A stretch of 64,000 nt of DNA. Origin: Faecalibacterium sp. I4-3-84 (GTDB lineage: Bacteria; Bacillota; Clostridia; Oscillospirales; Ruminococcaceae). This document shows positions 7,375-53,201 of this stretch, piece by piece. How positions within the stretch are numbered: the stretch's first letter is position 1; each line of letters starts with the position of its first letter. Where the stretch lies: assembly GCF_023347255.1 (NCBI RefSeq), contig NZ_CP094466.1, positions 806,001 to 870,000 on the forward strand, read 5' to 3'. The notes beneath the pieces were generated by a model. That model was not told the DNA's origin. It saw nothing but the letters and a program-made list of their open reading frames with translations, and made no database searches. The position numbers and the translations under genes were made by a program.

Positions 7375-7413
7375 TTTGATTCTCCGTTTCTTTTGTGTCT
7401 AAATTTTTGCCGC

Positions 7414-7452
7414 AAAAAGCCGCCCCGCGAAACTTTCATCTCGCGGGGCGGC
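7414..7452 (-). promoter_or_regulatory. Terminator-like hairpin in the DUF2798 leader (possible attenuator)
   Basis: Perfect 12-bp stem GCCGCCCCGCGA / TCGCGGGGCGGC with a 10-nt loop, followed on the minus strand by five T. It lies between the probable promoter (7476-7484) and the start codon at 7374, and no minus-strand gene ends upstream of it. Confidence 0.5.
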
Positions 7453-7475
7453 GGCGACTACCATTCATTGGCGTT

Positions 7476-7484
7476 ATTTTAGCA
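7476..7484 (-). promoter_or_regulatory. Extended -10 promoter of the DUF2798 gene
   Basis: Minus strand TGC-TAAAAT about 105 nt before the start codon, without a clear -35. Confidence 0.4.
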
Positions 7485-7738
7485 CAAATCGATCTGACGC
7501 ATAATACCCTGTGGACACTTTCTCCCGTTTTGCGCAAAATCCTCCACAAACGGCCCGGAACTTCTGGGCAGCTTTGCTGTTGACTTCCTTGTCAGCCCTC
7601 CCTGCAGGGCACAGAGTTCCTCTCCAAAGGGTCTGATTGCCCGGACACACCGCGCAGAAAGCAGCATTTTGCACGTTCTATCTGCTATTTTTCAAGAACT
7701 GCACAATTATATGTTTCTATCCTTGTGCACTCTGCGAA

Positions 7739-7767
7739 TAGACAAATCGATCAGGAATATGTATAAT
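7739..7767 (+). promoter_or_regulatory. Promoter of the mini-ORF transcript
   Basis: TAGACA (7739-7744), 17-nt spacer, perfect TATAAT (7762-7767); expected start near 7774. The 250 nt upstream (7485-7738) show no gene. Confidence 0.65.
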
Positions 7768-7848
7768 AAAGCCAGAAACCAGAGAAGTACAGCAGAAGCT
7801 CAAGAGAGAGCTAATCCCGCTGACTTGAAGCAGAAAGGAGCGAGACCG

Positions 7849-7899
7849 ATGGTCGATATGGAACCCGCACAGTTTGGACAGGCTGTCGGGATTCGCTGA
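7849..7899 (+). CDS. Mini-ORF of 16 codons
   Basis: MVDMEPAQFGQAVGIR, with AAAGGAG at 7834-7840, 8 nt before the ATG. The start codon lies in the loop of a small GACC/GGTC hairpin and the frame covers a second hairpin, so translation and folding would compete. No function recognised; may be a real peptide or a by-product of a structured RNA. Confidence 0.35.
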   Translation: MVDMEPAQFGQAVGIR

Positions 7900-8056
7900 G
7901 AAGCAAAACAGAGGCTCACCACAGACGGGATGTTTCCCCCGTATAAAAACACAACAAAAATGAGCCAGTCTTGAGCATCAAAAATGCGATTACACGACAA
8001 CCTGTCGATAAACTTAACCCCCAGCGATTCAAATAGATCCGCCGGAGATGATTCCT

Positions 8057-8095
8057 ATGAAGGTATCTTTTGTACGGAGAACATTATTTGAATAG
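8057..8095 (+). CDS. Mini-ORF of 12 codons
   Basis: MKVSFVRRTLFE with CGGAG at 8043-8047, 9 nt before the ATG. Basic, one hydrophobic end. First of the three ATGAA-starting frames in the repeated modules. Confidence 0.3.
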   Translation: MKVSFVRRTLFE

Positions 8096-8114
8096 CAAAA
8101 AAGGAGTTCTACCA

Positions 8115-8123
8115 ATGTACTAA
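8115..8123 (+). CDS. Two-codon minigene ATG-TAC-TAA
   Basis: AAGGAG (8101-8106) sits exactly 8 nt before ATG-TAC-TAA, an ideal ribosome site for a frame that can only make Met-Tyr. An identical minigene recurs at 8228. Confidence 0.3.
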   Translation: MY

Positions 8124-8166
8124 GTAGTTTGCCCCTAGCGAATCTAACTCGAAAGAATGTGGTAAT

Positions 8167-8211
8167 ATGAAATTCATCTTCCGAATCTCGGTGCCGCACT
8201 CCATCAGTTAA
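8167..8211 (+). CDS. Mini-ORF of 14 codons
   Basis: MKFIFRISVPHSIS; occupies the same place in module 2 as the frame at 8057 in module 1, but has only a weak ribosome site, so translation is less certain. Confidence 0.2.
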   Translation: MKFIFRISVPHSIS

Positions 8212-8227
8212 GAGAAGGGTCAATCCA

Positions 8228-8236
8228 ATGTACTAA
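8228..8236 (+). CDS. Second two-codon minigene ATG-TAC-TAA
   Basis: AGAAGGG (8213-8219) lies 8 nt before ATG-TAC-TAA. Same frame and same flank (CCAATGTACTAAGTA) as at 8115 although the sequence around is diverged. Confidence 0.3.
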   Translation: MY

Positions 8237-8297
8237 GTAAATTCGTCCCCTTGAAATAGATTCTCAGTTTCCAGTAGTTTCTAAGGAGAGTCACCCT

Positions 8298-8321
8298 ATG
8301 AAACGTTTACTCCGAAAATGA
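8298..8321 (+). CDS. Mini-ORF of 7 codons
   Basis: MKRLLRK, strongly basic, with AAGGAG at 8283-8288, 9 nt before the ATG. Third ATGAA-starting frame of the series. Confidence 0.3.
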   Translation: MKRLLRK

Positions 8322-8344
8322 GGAACCCCAAGGAGAAGAGGCTT

Positions 8345-8362
8345 ATGACTCCGAAGAAGTAA
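8345..8362 (+). CDS. Mini-ORF of 5 codons
   Basis: MTPKK with AAGGAG at 8330-8335, 9 nt before the ATG; followed by TAAGTA like the two Met-Tyr minigenes. The terminator stem begins 5 nt after the stop. Confidence 0.3.
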   Translation: MTPKK

Positions 8363-8366
8363 GTAT

Positions 8367-8414
8367 CCAGCCGGACGAAGGCTTGCAACCGCCTCGTCCG
8401 GCTGGTTTTATTTT
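8367..8414 (+). terminator. Terminator of the mini-ORF transcript
   Basis: Perfect 12-bp stem CCAGCCGGACGA / TCGTCCGGCTGG followed by TTTTATTTT. Confidence 0.85.
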
Positions 8415-8502
8415 GTGCTTTTTCAACCAACAGTTGATGCCCGATTTGTGCAAATTTTACGCTGCGCGGTTGAATACCGTCCTTTGTTTTTGCACTTTTC
8501 TG

Positions 8503-8511
8503 TGGTATACT
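8503..8511 (+). promoter_or_regulatory. Extended -10 promoter of the small membrane protein operon
   Basis: TGG-TATACT, 26 nt before the start codon; only a weak -35 (TTTGTT, 17 nt upstream). Confidence 0.5.
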
Positions 8512-8537
8512 GTGGAAAAAGATGGGAGGTGCATTTC

Positions 8538-8855
8538 ATGGAGTCGTTCATTTCGTTTTCTACTCTGTTCAACCTCGTGCTGACCGTTATCTGGTTCATC
8601 TCCGGCATTCGGGATCTTCAAGGCAAAGACCCGTTCCTCGATCTGCCGTTCAACCAGTATCACCGCGACCCGGAATACCGCGCCTTCTGGCAGAAAAAGA
8701 ACGGCGTATTTTACATACTCAACAGCATCGCCTTTCTGATCTTAGCCTTCACACCTGTTACATCGCTGATCTACCGTATCCTCTTCGGCATTGCCATCGT
8801 GGGGGACCTTCTTTATCTTGTCGCCTACGAAAGCTGGAACCATAGTGCGGATTGA
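8538..8855 (+). CDS. Small membrane protein, first of a paralogous pair
   Basis: 105 residues. The ATG at 8538 was chosen for the GGGAGG site in front. Three hydrophobic helices: LFNLVLTVIWFISG, then GVFYILNSIAFLILAF, then ILFGIAIVGDLLYLVA. A GIRDL motif follows the first helix, then a charged loop with HRDPEYRAFWQKKN. The next gene encodes a protein of the same size with the same helix order and GIRDL motif, so the pair probably arose by duplication. Function unknown; the three-gene operon is all small membrane proteins. Confidence 0.65.
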   Translation: MESFISFSTLFNLVLTVIWFISGIRDLQGKDPFLDLPFNQYHRDPEYRAFWQKKNGVFYILNSIAFLILAFTPVTSLIYRILFGIAIVGDLLYLVAYESWNHSAD

Positions 8856-9829: not shown

Positions 9830-10112
9830 TAACAATGTAAATTGGCTGTGAAGAGAAGAGTACGCACCGTCTGCGCCTGACAGAAAGCCCGAAGGATGGA
9901 ACCGGGCAGGCCGCGCGATGCCGAAGATGGTCTCGGAGCTGCGCAGGTGAAAATTGAGCCTGCGACGGGTGCGCCCGTTACCGCGCTGCGCCGTGCTTTT
10001 TTGCCCGGCAAAAGGCTGTGCCCGCAAGGGTGCGGCGAAGCAAGGTGGTACCACGAAAGTTTCAGGCTCTCGTCCTTGTCCGGCTCAGTCCGGCAGGATG
10101 AGGGCTTTTTTC
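9830..10112 (+). promoter_or_regulatory. T-box riboswitch, probably Met-sensing
   Basis: The conserved T-box AAGGTGGTACCACG is at 10042-10055, followed by an intrinsic terminator (CTCGTCCT...AGGATGAGGGC then six T, about 10067-10112). Stem I is closed by CTGCGC/GCGCAG; the AG-bulge and distal loop lie near CAGAAAGCCCG / CCGGGC (about 9880-9906). AUG triplets at 9918-9920 and 9927-9929 sit on the 3' side where the specifier is expected; the first is my choice, tentatively. Uncharged tRNA-Met would allow readthrough into metG. Confidence 0.9.
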
Positions 10113-10149: not shown

Positions 10150-12147
10150 ATGAGTGAACACAAGACATTCTACATCACCACTCCCATCTACTACCCCAGC
10201 GACAAACTGCACATCGGCCACAGCTATACCACTGTCGCCTGCGACGCACTGGCACGCTTCAAGCGGATGCAGGGCTATGACGTCATGTTCCTGACCGGCA
10301 CCGATGAGCACGGCCAGAAGATCCAGGACAAGGCTGCCGATGCCGGTGTGACCCCCAAGGAGTATGTGGACAAGATCGTAGCCACCGTCAAGGATCTGTG
10401 GAAGCTGCTGGACGTCAGCTACGACCGCTTCATCCGCACCACCGACGACTACCACATGGAGTCCTGCCAGAAAATTTTCACCAAGCTGTATGAGCAGGGC
10501 GACATCTACAAGGGCGAGTACATCGGTCACTACTGCAAGCCCTGCGAGAGCTTCTGGACCGACAGCCAGCTGGTGGACGGCAAGTGCCCCGACTGCGGCC
10601 GCGAAGTGTACGACGCACACGAGGAAGCCTACTTCTTCAAGACCAGCAAGTATGCCGACCGCCTGCTGAAGCTCTACGAGGAGAACCCCCAGTTCATCCA
10701 GCCCGAGAGCCGCAAGAACGAGATGATCGCCTTCATCAAGCAGGGCCTGCAGGACACCTGCGTGTCCCGCACCTCTGTGAAGTGGGGCATCCCCGTACCC
10801 TTCGACCCCAAGCACACCATGTATGTGTGGGTGGATGCCCTGAGCAACTATATCTCCGCGCTGGGCTACGGCAACGAAAAATATCACGACTACGACAAGT
10901 TCTGGCCTGCCGACCTGCACATGGTGGGCAAGGAGATCCTGCGTTTCCACACCATTCTGTGGCCCGCCATGCTGATGGCTCTGGATCTGCCCCTGCCCAA
11001 ACGGGTGTTCGGCCACGGCTGGCTGCTGATGAACGGCGGCAAGATGTCCAAGTCCGTGGGCAATGTGGTGGACCCTGTGATCCTGTGCGACCGCTACGGC
11101 GTGGATGCCATCCGCTACTTCCTGCTGCGTGAGATTCCCTTCGGCAACGATGGCATGTTCACCAACGAAGCCCTGATCAACCGCATCAACAGCGATCTTG
11201 CAAACGACCTGGGCAACCTGCTCAGCCGCACCGTCGCCATGTGCGAGAAGTACTTCGGCGGCACCGTGCACAATGTGGCCGGTACCGAGGCCATCGACAC
11301 CGAGCTGGAGACCATGGTCAACGAGCTGACCGCCAAGGTCACGGCCGACATGGACAGCCTGACCATCCCGCAGGCCCTGATGGAGATCTTTGCGGTCATC
11401 CAGCGCGCCAACAAGTACATCGACGAGACCGCTCCCTGGGCACTGGCAAAAGACGAGGCCAACAAGGCCCGTCTGGAGAGCGTGCTGTACCACCTGTGCG
11501 AGGCACTGCGCGTGTGCGGCATCCTGCTGAACGCATACCTGCCCACCACCGCACCCAAGATGATGGAACAGCTGGGTCTGGACGCATCTGCTCTGTACCT
11601 GACCAAGACCACCTACGGCGCACAGGAGACCTACACCGTGCACAAGGGCGAGGCACTGTTCCCCCGCATCGATGTGGCAAAGGAAATTGCCCACCTGAAG
11701 GAAGAGGACGAGAAGCGCAAGGCCGCTGCCGAAGCTGCCAACAAGGCCAAGGCTGAAGCTGAGAAGAAGGTTGCCGCCCCCGCCGAGGAGAGCACCGTGG
11801 ACTTTACCCACGAGGAAGAGATCGACTTTGACACCTTCTGCAAGGTGGAACTGCGCGTGGCCGAAGTGCGCGCCTGCGAGAACCTGAAGGAAAGCAAGAA
11901 GCTGCTGCACCTGACCGTGTTTGACGGCGAGCGGGAGCGCTGCATCCTTTCCGGCATTGCAAAGTGGTTCAAGCCGGAAGACCTGATCGGTAAGAAGATC
12001 GGCATTGTGTGCAATCTGGCACCTCGCCCCATGATGAAGGGCAAGTATGTCAGCGAGGGCATGATCTTTGCTGCTGATACCGCCGATGGCGGCTGCTCCA
12101 TCGCTTTCTACGGCGACGACACCCCCGTGGGCAGCCGCATCCACTGA
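10150..12147 (+). CDS. metG: Methionyl-tRNA synthetase
   Basis: 665 residues, class I synthetase charging tRNA-Met. HIGH motif HIGH at 21-24, KMSKS at 298-302, and a zinc knuckle with Cys 129, 132, 146 and 149. After the anticodon-binding domain comes an Ala/Lys/Glu-rich linker (about 520-560) and the C-terminal EMAP/Trbp-like tRNA-binding domain, beginning near EEIDFDTFCKVELRVAEV, which makes the enzyme a dimer in many Firmicutes. Expression is controlled by the T-box directly upstream. First gene of a metG-eamA-tatD operon. Confidence 0.97.
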   Translation: MSEHKTFYITTPIYYPSDKLHIGHSYTTVACDALARFKRMQGYDVMFLTGTDEHGQKIQDKAADAGVTPKEYVDKIVATVKDLWKLLDVSYDRFIRTTDDYHMESCQKIFTKLYEQGDIYKGEYIGHYCKPCESFWTDSQLVDGKCPDCGREVYDAHEEAYFFKTSKYADRLLKLYEENPQFIQPESRKNEMIAFIKQGLQDTCVSRTSVKWGIPVPFDPKHTMYVWVDALSNYISALGYGNEKYHDYDKFWPADLHMVGKEILRFHTILWPAMLMALDLPLPKRVFGHGWLLMNGGKMSKSVGNVVDPVILCDRYGVDAIRYFLLREIPFGNDGMFTNEALINRINSDLANDLGNLLSRTVAMCEKYFGGTVHNVAGTEAIDTELETMVNELTAKVTADMDSLTIPQALMEIFAVIQRANKYIDETAPWALAKDEANKARLESVLYHLCEALRVCGILLNAYLPTTAPKMMEQLGLDASALYLTKTTYGAQETYTVHKGEALFPRIDVAKEIAHLKEEDEKRKAAAEAANKAKAEAEKKVAAPAEESTVDFTHEEEIDFDTFCKVELRVAEVRACENLKESKKLLHLTVFDGERERCILSGIAKWFKPEDLIGKKIGIVCNLAPRPMMKGKYVSEGMIFAADTADGGCSIAFYGDDTPVGSRIH

Positions 12148-27259: not shown

Positions 27260-27793
27260 ATGGAAGAACAATCCAATGAGGCACTTTGGTATGTAGTGCA
27301 TACCTATTCCGGCTATGAGAACAAGGTCGCGAACGATCTGCAGACCATGGTGGAGAACCGTCATCTGCAGGATCTGATCTGCGATATCAAGGTTCCCGTC
27401 GAGATGGTTCCCGAAATTGACAAGAACGGCAAGCAGAAGATGGTGGAGCACAAGCTCTTCCCCGGCTACGTTCTGGTCAAAATGGTGATGAACGACGATA
27501 CCTGGTACGTGGTGCGCAATACGCGCGGCTGCACCGGCTTCGTCGGCCCCGCATCCAAGCCCGTTCCCCTCTCTGCTGAAGAAGTAGAGAAGATGGGCGT
27601 GGAAAAGGCTGCACCTCTGGCAGTCGACTTCAACGTCGGCGACACCGTGCAGATCACCGCCGGTCCTCTGGAAGGCTTTATGGGCCTTGTGGAGGAGATC
27701 GATACCGAGAACTTCAAAGTGAAGCTCAAGGTCAACATGTTCGGCCGCGAGACCCCCGCAGAGGTGGAGATCGGTCAGGTCGAGCTGCCGTAA
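27260..27793 (+). CDS. nusG: Transcription termination/antitermination factor NusG
   Basis: 177 residues: NGN domain (ALWYVVHTYSGYENKVANDL..., LFPGYVLVKMVM, WYVVRNTRGCTGFVG) and the C-terminal KOW domain (FNVGDTVQITAGPLEGFMG). Binds RNA polymerase and affects pausing, Rho action and coupling with ribosomes. A CGGAGGG site precedes the ATG. Operon member between secE and rplK. Confidence 0.97.
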   Translation: MEEQSNEALWYVVHTYSGYENKVANDLQTMVENRHLQDLICDIKVPVEMVPEIDKNGKQKMVEHKLFPGYVLVKMVMNDDTWYVVRNTRGCTGFVGPASKPVPLSAEEVEKMGVEKAAPLAVDFNVGDTVQITAGPLEGFMGLVEEIDTENFKVKLKVNMFGRETPAEVEIGQVELP

Positions 27794-27821
27794 CCAACCG
27801 GCTCAAATCGTTTACCAAGGT

Positions 27822-27895
27822 AAGACCGCAGTGCGGTTCTTATAGAGCGTGTGCACTGTGCACATGCTCGTGGGAGGCACGGAGACACCGTGCCG
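27822..27895 (+). promoter_or_regulatory. Structured leader of rplK
   Basis: Three hairpins in a row in the 136 nt between nusG and rplK: ACCGCA/TGCGGT, AGCGTGTGCA/TGCACATGCT and GGCACGG/CCGTGCC. A candidate site for autogenous control by L1, by analogy with other bacteria. Confidence 0.45.
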
Positions 27896-27929
27896 CAACT
27901 CACCACAGATTTTTGGAGGTGCATTTATT

Positions 27930-28355
27930 ATGGCACAGAAAGTTACTGGCTACATTAAGCTGCAGATCGAGGCCGGCAAGGCAACTCCGGCTCCCCCTGT
28001 TGGCCCTGCTCTGGGTCAGAAGGGTGTCAACATCATGGCATTCACCAAGGAGTTCAACGAGCGTACCAAGAACCAGATGGGTTATGTGATCCCCGTCGTC
28101 ATCACTGTGTATGCTGACCGCTCCTTCAGCTTCATCACCAAGACTCCTCCGGCAGCCGTTCTGATCAAGAAGGCAGCTGGCATCAACACCGCTTCCGGCA
28201 AGCCCAACAAGGAAAAGGTCGCTTCTCTGACCGCCGCTCAGGTGGAAGAGATCGCCAAGACCAAGATGCCCGACCTGAACGCTGCTTCTCTGGAAGCTGC
28301 ATGCAGCATGGTTCGCGGCACCTGCCGTTCCATGGGTGTCACCGTCGAGGGCTGA
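27930..28355 (+). CDS. rplK: 50S ribosomal protein L11
   Basis: 141 residues from the ATG at 27930 (TTGGAGG site), the exact usual length. N-terminal [37 protein letters not shown]-type sequence with its proline-rich loop, and C-terminal rRNA-binding domain ending [13 protein letters not shown]11 forms the GTPase-associated centre with 23S rRNA. Longer upstream frames were not used because they lack a ribosome site at the start. Confidence 0.97.
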
Positions 28356-28412
28356 GACATAAACAGTGGGAGGGCATAAAACTGCCCGCATGACCACACA
28401 GGAGGATATACA

Positions 28413-29105
28413 ATGAAACATGGCAAGCACTATGTCGACGCTGCAAAGCTGGTCGATTCTACTAAGGCATATGATGTGAACGAGGCTCTGGAGCTGGCTT
28501 GCAAGACCGCTTCTGCCAAGTTCGACGAGACTGTTGAGCTGCACGTCCGTCTGGGCGTTGACGGCCGTCACGCTGACCAGCAGGTCCGCGGCGCTGTCGT
28601 TCTGCCCAACGGCACCGGCAAGACCGTCCGCGTCTGCGCGATCGCCAAGGGTCCCGCAGCTGCCGCTGCTGAGGCTGCTGGCGCTGATATCGTCGGTGAT
28701 GACGAGCTGATCGCAAAGATCGCCGGCGGCTTCATGGATTTCGACGTTGTCGTGACCACTCCCGATATGATGGGCCGCGTTGGCCGTCTCGGTAAGGTCC
28801 TGGGCCCCCGCGGCCTGATGCCGAACCCCAAGGCCGGCACCGTTGCTCCCGACCTGGGCAAGGCTGTTTCTGAGGCCAAGGCTGGTAAGATCGAGTACCG
28901 TCTGGACAAGCAGAACATCATCCATGTGCCCGTGGGCAAGGCTTCTTTCGGTGCAGAGAAGCTGTACGCCAACCTGGACACTGTGATGGAGGCTATTGCC
29001 AAGGCAAAGCCCGCTGCAGCAAAGGGTACCTACTTCAAGAGCGCTACCATCGCCACCACCATGGGCCCTGGCATCCGTCTGAACACCCTGAAGTACGGCG
29101 TCTGA
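28413..29105 (+). CDS. rplA: 50S ribosomal protein L1
   Basis: 230 residues, normal. Blocks: [34 protein letters not shown] (usual 'DprxaDQ'), [17 protein letters not shown], and [25 protein letters not shown] with the RNA-binding glycine-rich segment. Builds the L1 stalk and often represses its own operon by binding the leader mRNA. A GGAGG site precedes the ATG. Last gene before the L10 leader promoter. Confidence 0.97.
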
Positions 29106-33317: not shown

Positions 33318-33613
33318 CAAGAAAAAGCGTTGACCGGGAAAAGTAAGGTTTCAATGTCCTCTTTCAGAGAGTGCGGGTAGGTGGAAGCCGCGCAGAGAGC
33401 GAAACCCGAACGAACACCCGCAAGCTTCCCCCTGAACCTGTTTATGCAGCAGTAGGGGCCGACGTGCGCCGCTCGTTATCGCGGCAGTGCTTTCAACGGG
33501 GAGAGCGCACAAAAGTGACTGGCATGGTTTTATGCCGGTAATTTAGGTGGCACCACGGATACGGCAGCATATTCGTCCTAGCGATTGGGATGAATGAGCT
33601 GCCGTATTTTTTA
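33318..33613 (+). promoter_or_regulatory. T-box riboswitch, Asn-sensing
   Basis: T-box TTTAGGTGGCACCACGG at 33543-33559, followed by terminator ATACGGCAGC / GCTGCCGTAT with a T run (about 33558-33613). Stem I is formed by GGTTTC / GAAACC with the AGAGAG element near 33366 and a distal hairpin. AAC triplets at 33409-33411 and 33413-33415 lie directly 3' of GAAACC at the specifier position, matching asparagine and the downstream gene. Confidence 0.9.
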
Positions 33614-36185: not shown

Positions 36186-36230
36186 CTCTTTTGCATTTAT
36201 GTTGATTATCCAACCATTTTCCTGTTTTGC

Positions 36231-36272
36231 GGATAGACAAGGCCCTCAGCCTTTTTTATACTGGGTCTATCC
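36231..36272. repeat. Inverted repeat between the NiaR-like and TetR genes
   Basis: GGATAGAC / GTCTATCC (8 bp) enclosing AAGGC-CCTCA-GCCTT followed by six T on the plus strand. May be an operator or the terminator of the NiaR-like gene. Confidence 0.4.
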
Positions 36273-51464: not shown

Positions 51465-53201
51465 ATGACTACTGAACAGCGTGAACCGCTCTATGCGTCC
51501 ACTGCGAAGCCCTGGCTGAAGTACTATGACCAGAAATACATCGACATGCCCCTGCCCAAGTGCAGCGCCTTTGAGTTTCTGTGCCATCAGAACAAGAACC
51601 ATCTGAGCGAGACCGCTCTGGAGTATTATGGCCGCAAATTCACCTTTGCAGACCTCTTTGTGAATATCAAGAAAACCGCGGCCGCCTTCCGTGCTCTCGG
51701 CGTGAAGAAGGGCGACATCATCACCGTTGTCAGCGTGATGACCCCCGAGGTGATCTATGCCTTCTACGCTGTCGATATGATCGGTGCAACGCTGAATCTG
51801 GTGGACCCGCGCTACAGCGTTGAGGGCATCCACGAGTACATCGAAGAGGTAGATTCCCGCCTGCTGATCTGCCTGAATGTGACCTATGAGCGCTGCCACA
51901 AGGCAGAAAAGCGCACCAATGTGGAGCGCGTTCTGGTCATCAGCCCCGCAGACTCTCTGCCGCTGCATCTGGCCGTCGGCTACAAGCTGACCACCCCCGA
52001 TAAGAACCGCTACAAGTCCAATGTGATCCACTGGAAGGACTTTATTGCGCAGGGCAAGGATCAGAGCATGAACGCCGAACCCTACGACCCGCAGCACGCC
52101 TGCGTGGTGGTGCACACCGGCGGCACCACCGGTTCGCCCAAGGGCGTTATGCTGACCGACGACAGCTTTAACTCTCTGGCCCACGAATTCATCGCCCAGA
52201 GCAACCTGTTCTGCCGCGGCCAGAAGCTGATGAACGTCATGCCTCCGTTCATTGCCTACGGCTATGCCTGCGGCGTGCACATGCCGCTGGTCATGGGCCT
52301 GCACGTCGTCATCATCCCCAATCTGGACCCCGACAAGCTGGGCGCACTGATCTGGAAGCACAAGCCCGAGCACATGTTCGGCGTTCCGGCCCACTACCAG
52401 CAGATGGCAGCTTCTCCGCTGCTCAAGAAGAAGAAGGATCTCTCCTTCATCCGCAACTATGCCGCCGGCGGCGACTCGCTGCCGCTGGGCGCTGAGCTGA
52501 CTGTGAACGAGTTCCTGAAGGCGCACAACGTGGAATATCCGCTGGCCAAGGGCTACGGCATGACCGAGGTCGCCTCTGCCGCTACCGTTGCCGCCGGCAA
52601 CGTGACCAAGCCCGGCAGCGTGGGCATTCCCATGCTGAACACGGTGGTGTCCATTTTTGAGCCTGGCACCGAGACCGAACTGCCCATCGGTGAGCGCGGC
52701 GAGATCTGCATCTGCACCCCCACCGTCATGAAGGGCTACTACAATAAGCCCGAGGAGACCGACATGATCCTGCGCCGCCATGCAGACGGCCAGATCTGGG
52801 CACACACCGGCGATGTCGGCTACATGGACGAGGACGGCTTTGTGTATCTGGATTCCCGCATCAAGCGCATGATCATCCGTCACGATGGCTTCAAGGTGTT
52901 CCCGTCCATGATCGAGAACGTCATCAGCCGCCACCCGGCCGTGCATCAGTGCTCGGTGGTGGGCTGCACCGATAAGGACCATGTGCAGGGCCGCCTGCCC
53001 TTTGTCTACGTGGTGCTGGACCCGGAAGGCGACAAGAAAAAGCGCCAGATCGTGCGGGAACTGCGCCAGCTGTGCAAGGAAGAGCTGCCGGAGTATGTGC
53101 AGCCGGTGGGCTACAAGTTCATCTCCGAAATGCCCTTTACCCCTGTTGGCAAGGTGGACTACCGCAAGCTGGAAGAAGAGATCACTCCCCGCGATTACTG
53201 A
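51465..53201 (+). CDS. AMP-forming acyl-CoA synthetase / ligase family protein
   Basis: 578 residues, ANL superfamily. P-loop HTGGTTGSPKGVMLT (TGGTTGSPKG at 218-227), A5 motif YGMTEVASA, A7 HTGDVGYMDEDGFVYL, A8 DSRIKRMIIRHDGFKVFPSMIENV and the catalytic lysine in TPVGKVDYRKLEEE near the C-terminus. It should activate a carboxylic acid as an AMP ester and pass it to CoA or another acceptor; the acid cannot be read from the sequence. Single gene with a promoter and terminator of its own. Confidence 0.88.
   Translation: MTTEQREPLYASTAKPWLKYYDQKYIDMPLPKCSAFEFLCHQNKNHLSETALEYYGRKFTFADLFVNIKKTAAAFRALGVKKGDIITVVSVMTPEVIYAFYAVDMIGATLNLVDPRYSVEGIHEYIEEVDSRLLICLNVTYERCHKAEKRTNVERVLVISPADSLPLHLAVGYKLTTPDKNRYKSNVIHWKDFIAQGKDQSMNAEPYDPQHACVVVHTGGTTGSPKGVMLTDDSFNSLAHEFIAQSNLFCRGQKLMNVMPPFIAYGYACGVHMPLVMGLHVVIIPNLDPDKLGALIWKHKPEHMFGVPAHYQQMAASPLLKKKKDLSFIRNYAAGGDSLPLGAELTVNEFLKAHNVEYPLAKGYGMTEVASAATVAAGNVTKPGSVGIPMLNTVVSIFEPGTETELPIGERGEICICTPTVMKGYYNKPEETDMILRRHADGQIWAHTGDVGYMDEDGFVYLDSRIKRMIIRHDGFKVFPSMIENVISRHPAVHQCSVVGCTDKDHVQGRLPFVYVVLDPEGDKKKRQIVRELRQLCKEELPEYVQPVGYKFISEMPFTPVGKVDYRKLEEEITPRDY

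Follow-up and report, generated by a model that had tools for sequence, protein, structure and literature searches.

A conserved gene without a normal protein

Positions 7739-8414 of the 64,000-nucleotide stretch of the Faecalibacterium sp. I4-3-84 genome analysed here (the window; C1:806001-870000 of a host genome of 3.12 Mb in one contig) hold a conserved gene without a normal protein, which, judged from its sequence, is a folded RNA carrying a string of frames of 2-16 codons with predicted ribosome sites. The RNA predicted for this copy is about 640 nt long, and the following parts can be recognised:

7733-7767, plus strand: promoter, with the conserved motif TGCGAATAGACA (7733-7744), then 17 nt, then the -10 box TATAAT (7762-7767)
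7739-7744, plus strand: -35 box TAGACA, inside the motif TGCGAATAGACA; together with the -10 box 11/12 consensus bases, sigma-70-type
7785-7826, plus strand: 5' stem-loop, with helix 1 (7785-7793/7819-7826) and helix 2 (7797-7801/7808-7812)
7834-7899, plus strand: ORF1, SD AAAGGAG (7834-7840), ATG at 7849, 16 codons, MVDMEPAQFGQAVGIR, stop TGA
7864-7890, plus strand: stem inside ORF1 (helix 3), 7864-7867 and 7869-7872 pairing with 7883-7890
7900-8026, plus strand: structured spacer that includes a CGGG...CCCG hairpin (helix 5; paired at 100%, a single one-sided change)
8027-8093, plus strand: 9-bp helix (helix 6) over ORF2, 8027-8035/8085-8093; 100% paired, one-sided changes only
8057-8095, plus strand: ORF2, SD GGAG (8044-8047, 4 nt), 12 codons, MKVSFVRRTLFE, stop TAG
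8100-8123, plus strand: minigene 1, SD AAAGGAG (8100-8106), ATG TAC TAA (Met-Tyr-stop) at 8115-8123
8167-8211, plus strand: ORF3, SD weak (AAAG, 4 nt), 14 codons, MKFIFRISVPHSIS, stop TAA
8215-8236, plus strand: minigene 2, SD AAGGG (8215-8219; 4-nt SD match AAGG), ATG TAC TAA at 8228-8236
8283-8321, plus strand: ORF4 (the ...SEK/...LRK frame), SD AAGGAG (8283-8288), MKRLLRK and TGA at 8298-8321, 7 codons
8330-8362, plus strand: last mini-ORF, SD AAGGAG (8330-8335), MTPKK and TAA at 8345-8362, 5 codons
8367-8413, plus strand: intrinsic terminator, 12-bp stem 8367-8378/8394-8405, fully matched and followed by a T-rich tract

In this copy the ATG of minigene 1 lies 19 nt past the ORF2 stop, minigene 2 follows the ORF3 stop at 16 nt, and the terminator stem begins 4 nt past the last stop. 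The first-pass annotation of this region had described a unit of mini-ORFs running from promoter to terminator, an observation that is confirmed here, and its interpretation is partly supported, as discussed below. The promoter that it called strong (TAGACA-17-TATAAT, 7739-7767) and the terminator that it called perfect are both present, each adjective being a judgement from sequence. It had counted at least six SD-preceded mini-ORFs of 2-16 codons; we find seven, its list omitting ORF3 at 8167. The AGGAG-type sites ascribed to these frames exist for four of the seven, which have an SD match of 6-7 nt, whereas the sites before 8057 (GGAG), 8167 (AAAG) and 8228 (AAGG) match over 4 nt only.

Frequency of mini-ORFs compared with shuffled sequences

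The mini-ORF count had been regarded as hard to explain by chance, and this is borne out: the seven SD-preceded mini-ORFs at the locus compare with a mean of 1.66 in 2000 dinucleotide shuffles, two of which reach seven, and the decisive support comes from conservation in relatives. With an SD of at least 5 nt, four mini-ORFs compare with a mean of 0.42, and 4 of the 2000 shuffles reach four. In a sliding scan of the 64 kb (2534 windows), seven is the maximum, equalled by minus-strand windows at 52501-52551; minus-strand windows at 27501-28001 likewise attain the stricter count of four (SD of at least 5 nt). The stretches with equal SD-mini-ORF counts (52501-53200 and 27501-28600, both minus strand) also contain long ORFs. 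A per-copy shuffle test covered 16 of the 46 copies recognised by a pattern for the last mini-ORF (see below). For 10 of these 16, none of 500 shuffles reached the observed mini-ORF count (SD of at least 4 nt), the chance level at an SD of 4 nt being 1.2-5.5 mini-ORFs per copy; for L088 and L125 the observed count was reached by 21 and 15 of the 500 shuffles, respectively.

Distribution of the element

Blastn with a 721-base query detected the element in 28 of the 31 genomes of the genus, including 22 of the 22 of good quality; the three genomes without a match are 77-83% complete. The most divergent copies (L025-L028) gave a blastn match over 64-108 bases only, after which their whole sequence was read. 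When the genome contigs were scanned with a DNA pattern built around the last mini-ORF, 34 loci emerged, 33 of them in Faecalibacterium, Gemmiger, Subdoligranulum or an Oscillospiraceae MAG; the remaining locus, in Flavobacterium, was rejected on reading as a chance match.

Sequence models gave further members. Model R1 found a match in 10 of 138 family genomes (7 real, 1 false, 2 unread), the real ones spanning five genera, namely the element's own genus (g1), g13, g53, g55 and g110. Model R2 gave 22 matches in 392 family genomes, 20 in the same five genera and 2 false, and 8 matches in 394 genomes of the order (5 in the own genus, 1 false, 2 unread). Model R3, which was built on ORF1, gave 26 matches in 257 family genomes, of which 22 were accepted and 4 false, and added the genera g9, g26, g59, g48, g21 and g32; among 291 genomes of the class, with E up to 1e-4, it matched the own genome alone. 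Models R1-R3 combined with reading of their matches place the element in 11 genera of one family, g53 being known from its 3' end only and the g48 copy ending at a contig end. Filters were stricter whenever a search covered more than 40 genomes, so that weak members may have escaped it. The weak model matches L092, L104, L122, L151 and L155-L157 were judged false on reading, and four others (L093, L094, L105, L106) are unread. Genus g55 shares ORF1 and the tail with named Gemmiger records and is hence called Gemmiger here. The copies share descent, so that counts over them are not independent.

As the element is conserved across 11 genera with its anatomy held, it represents a real gene family, and chance or decay is refuted as its origin. 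The comparison with relatives that the first-pass annotation had proposed thus finds the element in related genomes with frames and anatomy kept. No match was obtained with the pattern in viral contigs or by blastn against phages and plasmids, and a mobile-element or phage RNA was rejected on this ground.

Copy number and length vary. Genus g13 has two tandem copies (L089 and L090), both of which have a promoter motif and a terminator of their own, and genome G382 (g55, Gemmiger-like) carries two copies at separate loci (L125 and L047). From the promoter motif to the last stop, the 45 copies with a known start measure 497-1416 nt; L125 is a minimal form (497 nt), with ORF1, ORF2, Met-Tyr-stop and MTPII, and L015, L017 and L019-L024 (g1) are longer, at about 1.1 kb, and have additional modules in the middle.

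Order of parts, promoter and ORF1

The order of parts is ORF1, structured spacer, ORF2, a Met-Tyr or Met-Ile minigene, optional modules, usually the SEK/LRK frame, and the last mini-ORF. The motif GCGAAT[AG]GAC or a small variant precedes 44 of 45 copies, the exception being L027, a frequency that is partly by construction, since copy starts were located with the promoter motif and its variants. The motif also occurs in g32, and other sequence stands at that place in g9, g26, g59, g21 and g48.

ORF1 has 16 codons in 24/24 close copies and 14-17 codons across genera, with the exception of L027, where the stop is lost and the frame extends to 22 codons; its length differs between genera by multiples of three. 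The encoded peptides contain P-x-Q in seven genera (g1, g13, g110, g9, g26, g59, g32), with the variants P-K-H in g21 and one g59 copy and P-G-C in g48; the Gemmiger ORF1 is an unrelated 16-mer. In an alignment of 12 copies, the stretch around the SD of ORF1 and the MTPKK frame are wholly invariant; all four positions separating the last stop from the terminator vary.

Frames are kept, most peptides are not

Frames and synonymous changes were analysed in 24 of the 28 genus copies, L025-L028 being too divergent for anchors. All six frames scanned are open in 24/24 of these close copies, the last one by construction. The ORF1 stop is always TGA, and the stops of ORF2, ORF3 and the SEK frame are mixed: ORF2 (10-12 codons, open in 24/24) ends in TAG in 16 copies, TAA in 5 and TGA in 3, and ORF3 (open in 24/24) in TGA in 15 and TAA in 9. 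The SEK/LRK frame (ORF4) ends with a lysine codon followed by the stop in 24/24 copies. Indels inside the frames measure 3, 6 or 9 nt, apart from one of 5 nt, which is compensated by a one-base difference in an A-run so that ORF4 is kept, and one of 2 nt, which shifts the ORF3 stop; outside the frames, 5 of 44 indels are multiples of three.

The fraction of synonymous changes was compared between the frame itself and the two shifted frames (0/+1/+2), taking only length classes with at least 4 distinct sequences. It amounts to 0.20/0.23/0.16 for ORF1 (18 sequences); 0.09/0.09/0.06 (n=14) and 0.19/0.03/0.00 (n=5, the 36-nt class) for ORF2; 0.28/0.11/0.05 (n=9) and 0.16/0.11/0.29 (n=6) for ORF3; and 0.29/0.28/0.14 (n=7) and 0.22/0.20/0.05 (n=9) for the SEK frame. 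A clear synonymous excess is absent in five of the seven sets and present in the nine ORF3 sequences and the five 36-nt ORF2 sequences, which give a hint of peptide constraint in that ORF3 subset and the small ORF2 set. Given that the frames are kept without a clear synonymous excess in most peptides, selection looks to act on translation as such and not on the peptide that results. Some peptides may nevertheless matter, because P-x-Q of ORF1 is kept where the underlying stem is lost (see below) and because of the synonymous excess in the ORF3 subset.

Minigenes, spacing and the terminator gap

A scan of 59 copies, comprising the 46 copies and 13 others including L147, which is cut by a contig end, found Met-Tyr-stop in 57. 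The tyrosine codon is TAC in 81 cases and TAT in 2, and the stops after TAC are TAA (33), TAG (31) and TGA (17). This near-exclusive use of TAC could reflect selection at the RNA level and not on coding. Other second codons in the 59 copies are ATT (19), TGC (4), ATC, TTC and TGG (3 each) and a few singles, some of which are probably due to chance. Minigene 1 has two codons in 24/24 close copies (Met-Tyr in 14, Met-Ile in 10). Minigene 2 is not always of this length (3 codons in L005, 15 in L007, 5 in L008), and L006, L009 and L011 have one two-codon ORF each.

The 46 copies contain 88 two-codon frames, 0-4 per copy. Measured from the stop of the longer frame, 27 of the 88 start at 19 nt, 15 at 18 nt and 10 at 16 nt; a further 12 lie 5 nt past the prior stop, 10 have no partner and 14 are scattered. 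The last mini-ORF starts 19-23 nt past the SEK/LRK stop in 40 of the 46 copies; in one copy the spacing is 4 nt, and five are without an SEK/LRK frame. It reads M-[TK]-P-x-x, with five codons, in 46/46 copies (MTPKK in 35) and stops in TAA, TGA or TAG, its presence being by construction, as the 46 copies were recognised by the pattern for it. In g9, g26 and g59 the last mini-ORF is instead Met-Tyr-stop.

A terminator was found in 55/55 copies measured. The distance from the last stop to its stem is 4 nt in 38 and 2-6 nt in all of the 46 copies, despite changing terminator sequence, and in the second type (g9, g26, g59) the stem begins 8-9 nt past the last stop in 9/9 copies. The 3' end of g21 resembles, by eye, that of the second type; that of g32 lies outside these terminator-gap counts.

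RNA structure and comparison with known families

The RNA of the window copy is predicted to fold more stably than shuffled sequences, with an energy of -180 kcal/mol compared with a mean of -153.4 kcal/mol (z -4.9 from a set of only 20 shuffles). Sequence conservation is higher in the 5' domain than in most of the 3' part. Structure was analysed on alignments of 12 of the 16 short-form genus copies and of 20 of the 24 copies, near-identical rows being omitted. The 5' stem-loop is paired in 100% of cells (20 sequences), and two pairs of helix 2 are changed on both sides (AU/GC and AU/CG/UA). Helix 3, in ORF1, is 97.5% paired and, by eye, lost in g110; being nearly invariant, it provides weak evidence. 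As aligned, 10 of the 20 sequences cannot form three of the five pairs of helix 4. The helix 8027-8035/8085-8093 includes the end of ORF2, so that a ribosome on ORF2 would open it. Some pairs of the terminator stem are changed on both sides.

RNAalifold predicts 110 pairs, of which 13 are changed on both sides in one sequence or more, and gives a covariation term near zero (-0.22). A hand-drawn 5' structure is paired in 96.0% of cells, compared with 93.0% in shuffles and 27-48% in slid versions. Cells with both-sided changes number 29 versus 11.4 in shuffles (reached by 0/500), pairs with such changes 3 versus 2.3 (reached by 222/500), and pair types 11 versus 12.9 (reached by 500/500). Structural covariation is modest.

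The Rfam search proposed in the first-pass annotation was carried out, and the locus matches no known RNA family: in the whole window one match exceeds the cut-off, a T-box at 33321-33583, elsewhere than the element; positions 7400-8600, with E up to 5, give seven weak matches, all far under cut-off; and six related loci give none. The T-box leader at 33321-33583 (plus strand) is followed immediately by an ORF at 33594 whose product resembles an asparagine synthase. The possibility of a tmRNA was rejected, as the tmRNA of this genome is at C1:8890-9240 and 0 of 10 RF00023 matches fall at this locus.

Genomic setting

There is no constant downstream gene across genera, gene names being read by eye. 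In the window the element lies about 1.7 kb upstream of metG (gene at 10150), and metG is directly downstream in L025, L026, L028 and L050. In Gemmiger and g13 the element sits after a gene reading as argS, and an Asp/Glu racemase gene is downstream in L088, L120 (g55), g9, g26 and g21; some downstream genes face, by eye, in the opposite direction. A metG attenuator, which the position near metG in several genomes might suggest, was rejected as a general explanation because other genera have other neighbours. By eye, the metG of the metG-flanked copies has its own promoter, and in the window a T-box-like leader (9839-10080, plus strand) precedes metG with 90.1 bits, just below the 93-bit Rfam cut-off.

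Possible function and alternative explanations

The reading we favour, with belief and doubt in balance, is that the element is an autonomous, vertically inherited, structured RNA gene that would be occupied by ribosomes. From a dedicated promoter to its own terminator, the RNA would span about 0.5-1.4 kb; its 5' domain would be folded and its 3' part tiled with ribosome sites, each starting a frame of 2-16 codons. The anatomy, the conservation, the frames and their spacing are seen directly in the sequences. Behind a longer frame, mostly at 16-23 nt, comes a very short one, either Met-Tyr-stop or M-x-P-x-x-stop, and this spacing would fit termination and subsequent re-initiation. Selection would keep ribosome binding, brief translation and termination at fixed places, and not most of the peptides, and ribosomes would sit on or cycle over the sites. 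Acting in cis, they may remodel stems, ORF1 and ORF2 crossing helices, and shield the RNA up to the terminator; in trans, the occupied RNA may sequester or report on ribosomes, initiator tRNA or peptidyl-tRNA and in this way serve as a sponge or sensor of translation capacity. An RNA that holds or cycles ribosomes is favoured because the arrangement of a termination site near a start repeats several times without a host gene. Tentatively, and with more doubt than belief, we propose that the element represents a new class of RNA gene, a chromosomal "ribosome dock" of Faecalibacterium and its relatives, whose selected product would be ribosome occupancy and which, by holding or cycling ribosomes on its spaced frames of 2-16 codons, would buffer or sense translation capacity in trans.

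Of the four readings that the first-pass annotation had offered, the translation-engaging regulatory RNA and the minigene array fit best, because conservation across genera extends to the ribosome sites, the starts, the frames and the stops but not to most peptides; its peptide operon is weakly supported, and of its large ornate non-coding RNA the structured 5' domain with a few compensatory pairs stands, although no known family is matched. If the mini-ORFs formed a toxic array, strong SDs and two-codon frames would cause peptidyl-tRNA drop-off and throttle translation under some condition via the dedicated promoter. Two-codon Met-Tyr and Met-Ile frames are indeed present, expression of bar (fMet-Ile, UAA) can accumulate peptidyl-tRNA (PMC8012679), and a strong SD increases re-initiation and toxicity (PMC8708949); yet PMC8708949 reports UAA as the most toxic stop, whereas TAG and TGA are common in the element, and growth was not inhibited by the minigene mg2 of that study. 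Such an array would also have no need of longer frames or of a structured 5' domain, and we consider it unlikely. Similarly unlikely is a structured non-coding RNA in which the 5' fold is functional and the SD-AUG sites merely recruit ribosomes as a shield against nucleases or Rho. It would agree with the more conserved 5' domain, with stems showing some covariation and with the proposal, made for minigenes in PMC8708949, that ribosome occupancy shields RNA, but protection alone needs neither conserved stops nor two-codon length nor a held terminator gap.

A peptide operon, in which the RNA would be a plain mRNA and the mini-ORFs would encode genuine short peptides (signals, arrest peptides or ribosome ligands), is improbable. 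The kept frames, P-x-Q in ORF1 of seven genera, the kept last peptide M-[TK]-P-x-x and the synonymous values of 28% versus 11% and 5% (ORF3, n=9) and 19% versus 3% and 0% (ORF2, n=5) speak for it; however, ORF1, the larger ORF2 set and the SEK frames lack a clear synonymous excess over both shifted frames, the Gemmiger ORF1 is unrelated, and two-codon ORFs could hardly carry a specific signal. The stop-to-stem gap of 2-6 or 8-9 nt in 55/55 copies, at which a terminating ribosome could touch the stem, would suit a translation-dependent attenuator, where ribosomes at the last mini-ORF clash with the terminator and RNA polymerase reads on, but the downstream genes vary by genus and in part run in the opposite direction, and metG has its own promoter (by eye) and, in the window, a T-box-like leader, which makes this quite improbable. 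Chance or a decayed gene, to which the two of 2000 shuffles and the two other windows of the 64 kb reaching seven might be credited, is practically inconceivable in view of the conserved anatomy across 11 genera.

Relation to known systems

OLE, GOLLD and ROOL are large structured intergenic RNAs. The element is likewise large, structured and intergenic, but it has no Rfam match, conserved reading frames dominate in it, and the evidence for structure is modest. SgrS/SgrT and RNAIII/hld are dual-function sRNAs, each with one conserved peptide ORF; they are regulatory RNAs that are also translated, as may be the element, which in contrast has 4-15 SD-preceded frames per copy (a loose count over 16 copies that includes chance ones), mostly with unconserved peptides. 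With leader-peptide attenuators and T-boxes the element shares a mini-ORF beside a terminator, but it lacks a constant downstream operon, and metG has its own T-box-like leader.

Lambda bar minigenes are isolated frames. The likeness consists in an SD with a two-codon frame fMet-X-stop, which is found in the element, Ile being among its second codons. However, bar frames are phage frames (PMC8012679), whereas the element is a chromosomal RNA gene with 0-4 two-codon frames, mostly Met-Tyr, plus longer ones. Known minigenes act in cis via ribosome occupancy and spacing or in trans via peptidyl-tRNA release (PMC8012679, PMC8708949). Leader minigenes (axe-txe mg2; LEE1/ler and LEE4 of EHEC) are akin to the element in having frames of 2-6 codons with spacing-dependent effects, and the mg2 stop lies 15 nt from the next start (PMC8708949), compared with mostly 16-23 nt between paired frames of the element; they precede an ordinary gene that they regulate, whereas the element is without such a gene. 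In E. coli, most intercistronic gaps are below 30 nt, which is deemed too short for new initiation, and re-initiation is therefore thought to be frequent (PMC5972666).

A similar gene was not found in the open-licence literature searched, nor in Rfam. A single minigene is of a known kind, a regulator or toxin; what appears to be new is the kind of gene, an autonomous minigene array. The element belongs to an abundant human gut commensal genus and, because its frames have 2-16 codons, would escape ordinary annotation. It provides a natural system for asking whether an RNA can function through translation itself and not through what is translated, and would allow re-initiation behind very short frames, as well as contact between ribosome and terminator, to be tested.

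Occurrence of the promoter pattern elsewhere in the genome

Exact TGCGAATAGAC occurs at 2 places in the genome, compared with 3 for a reversed-pattern control, the second place lying, by eye, within an ORF. An extended promoter pattern with up to 3 mismatches is found at 6 places, versus 0 for the reversed control. A shared promoter regulon was considered and rejected, two of the six places having been read, the element (0 mismatches) and one with 2 mismatches, and the four with 3 mismatches being unread. The site with 2 mismatches, at 36228-36262 (plus strand), is the second-best match in the genome, lies between two minus-strand ORFs and adjoins an inverted repeat (GGATAGAC/GTCTATCC).
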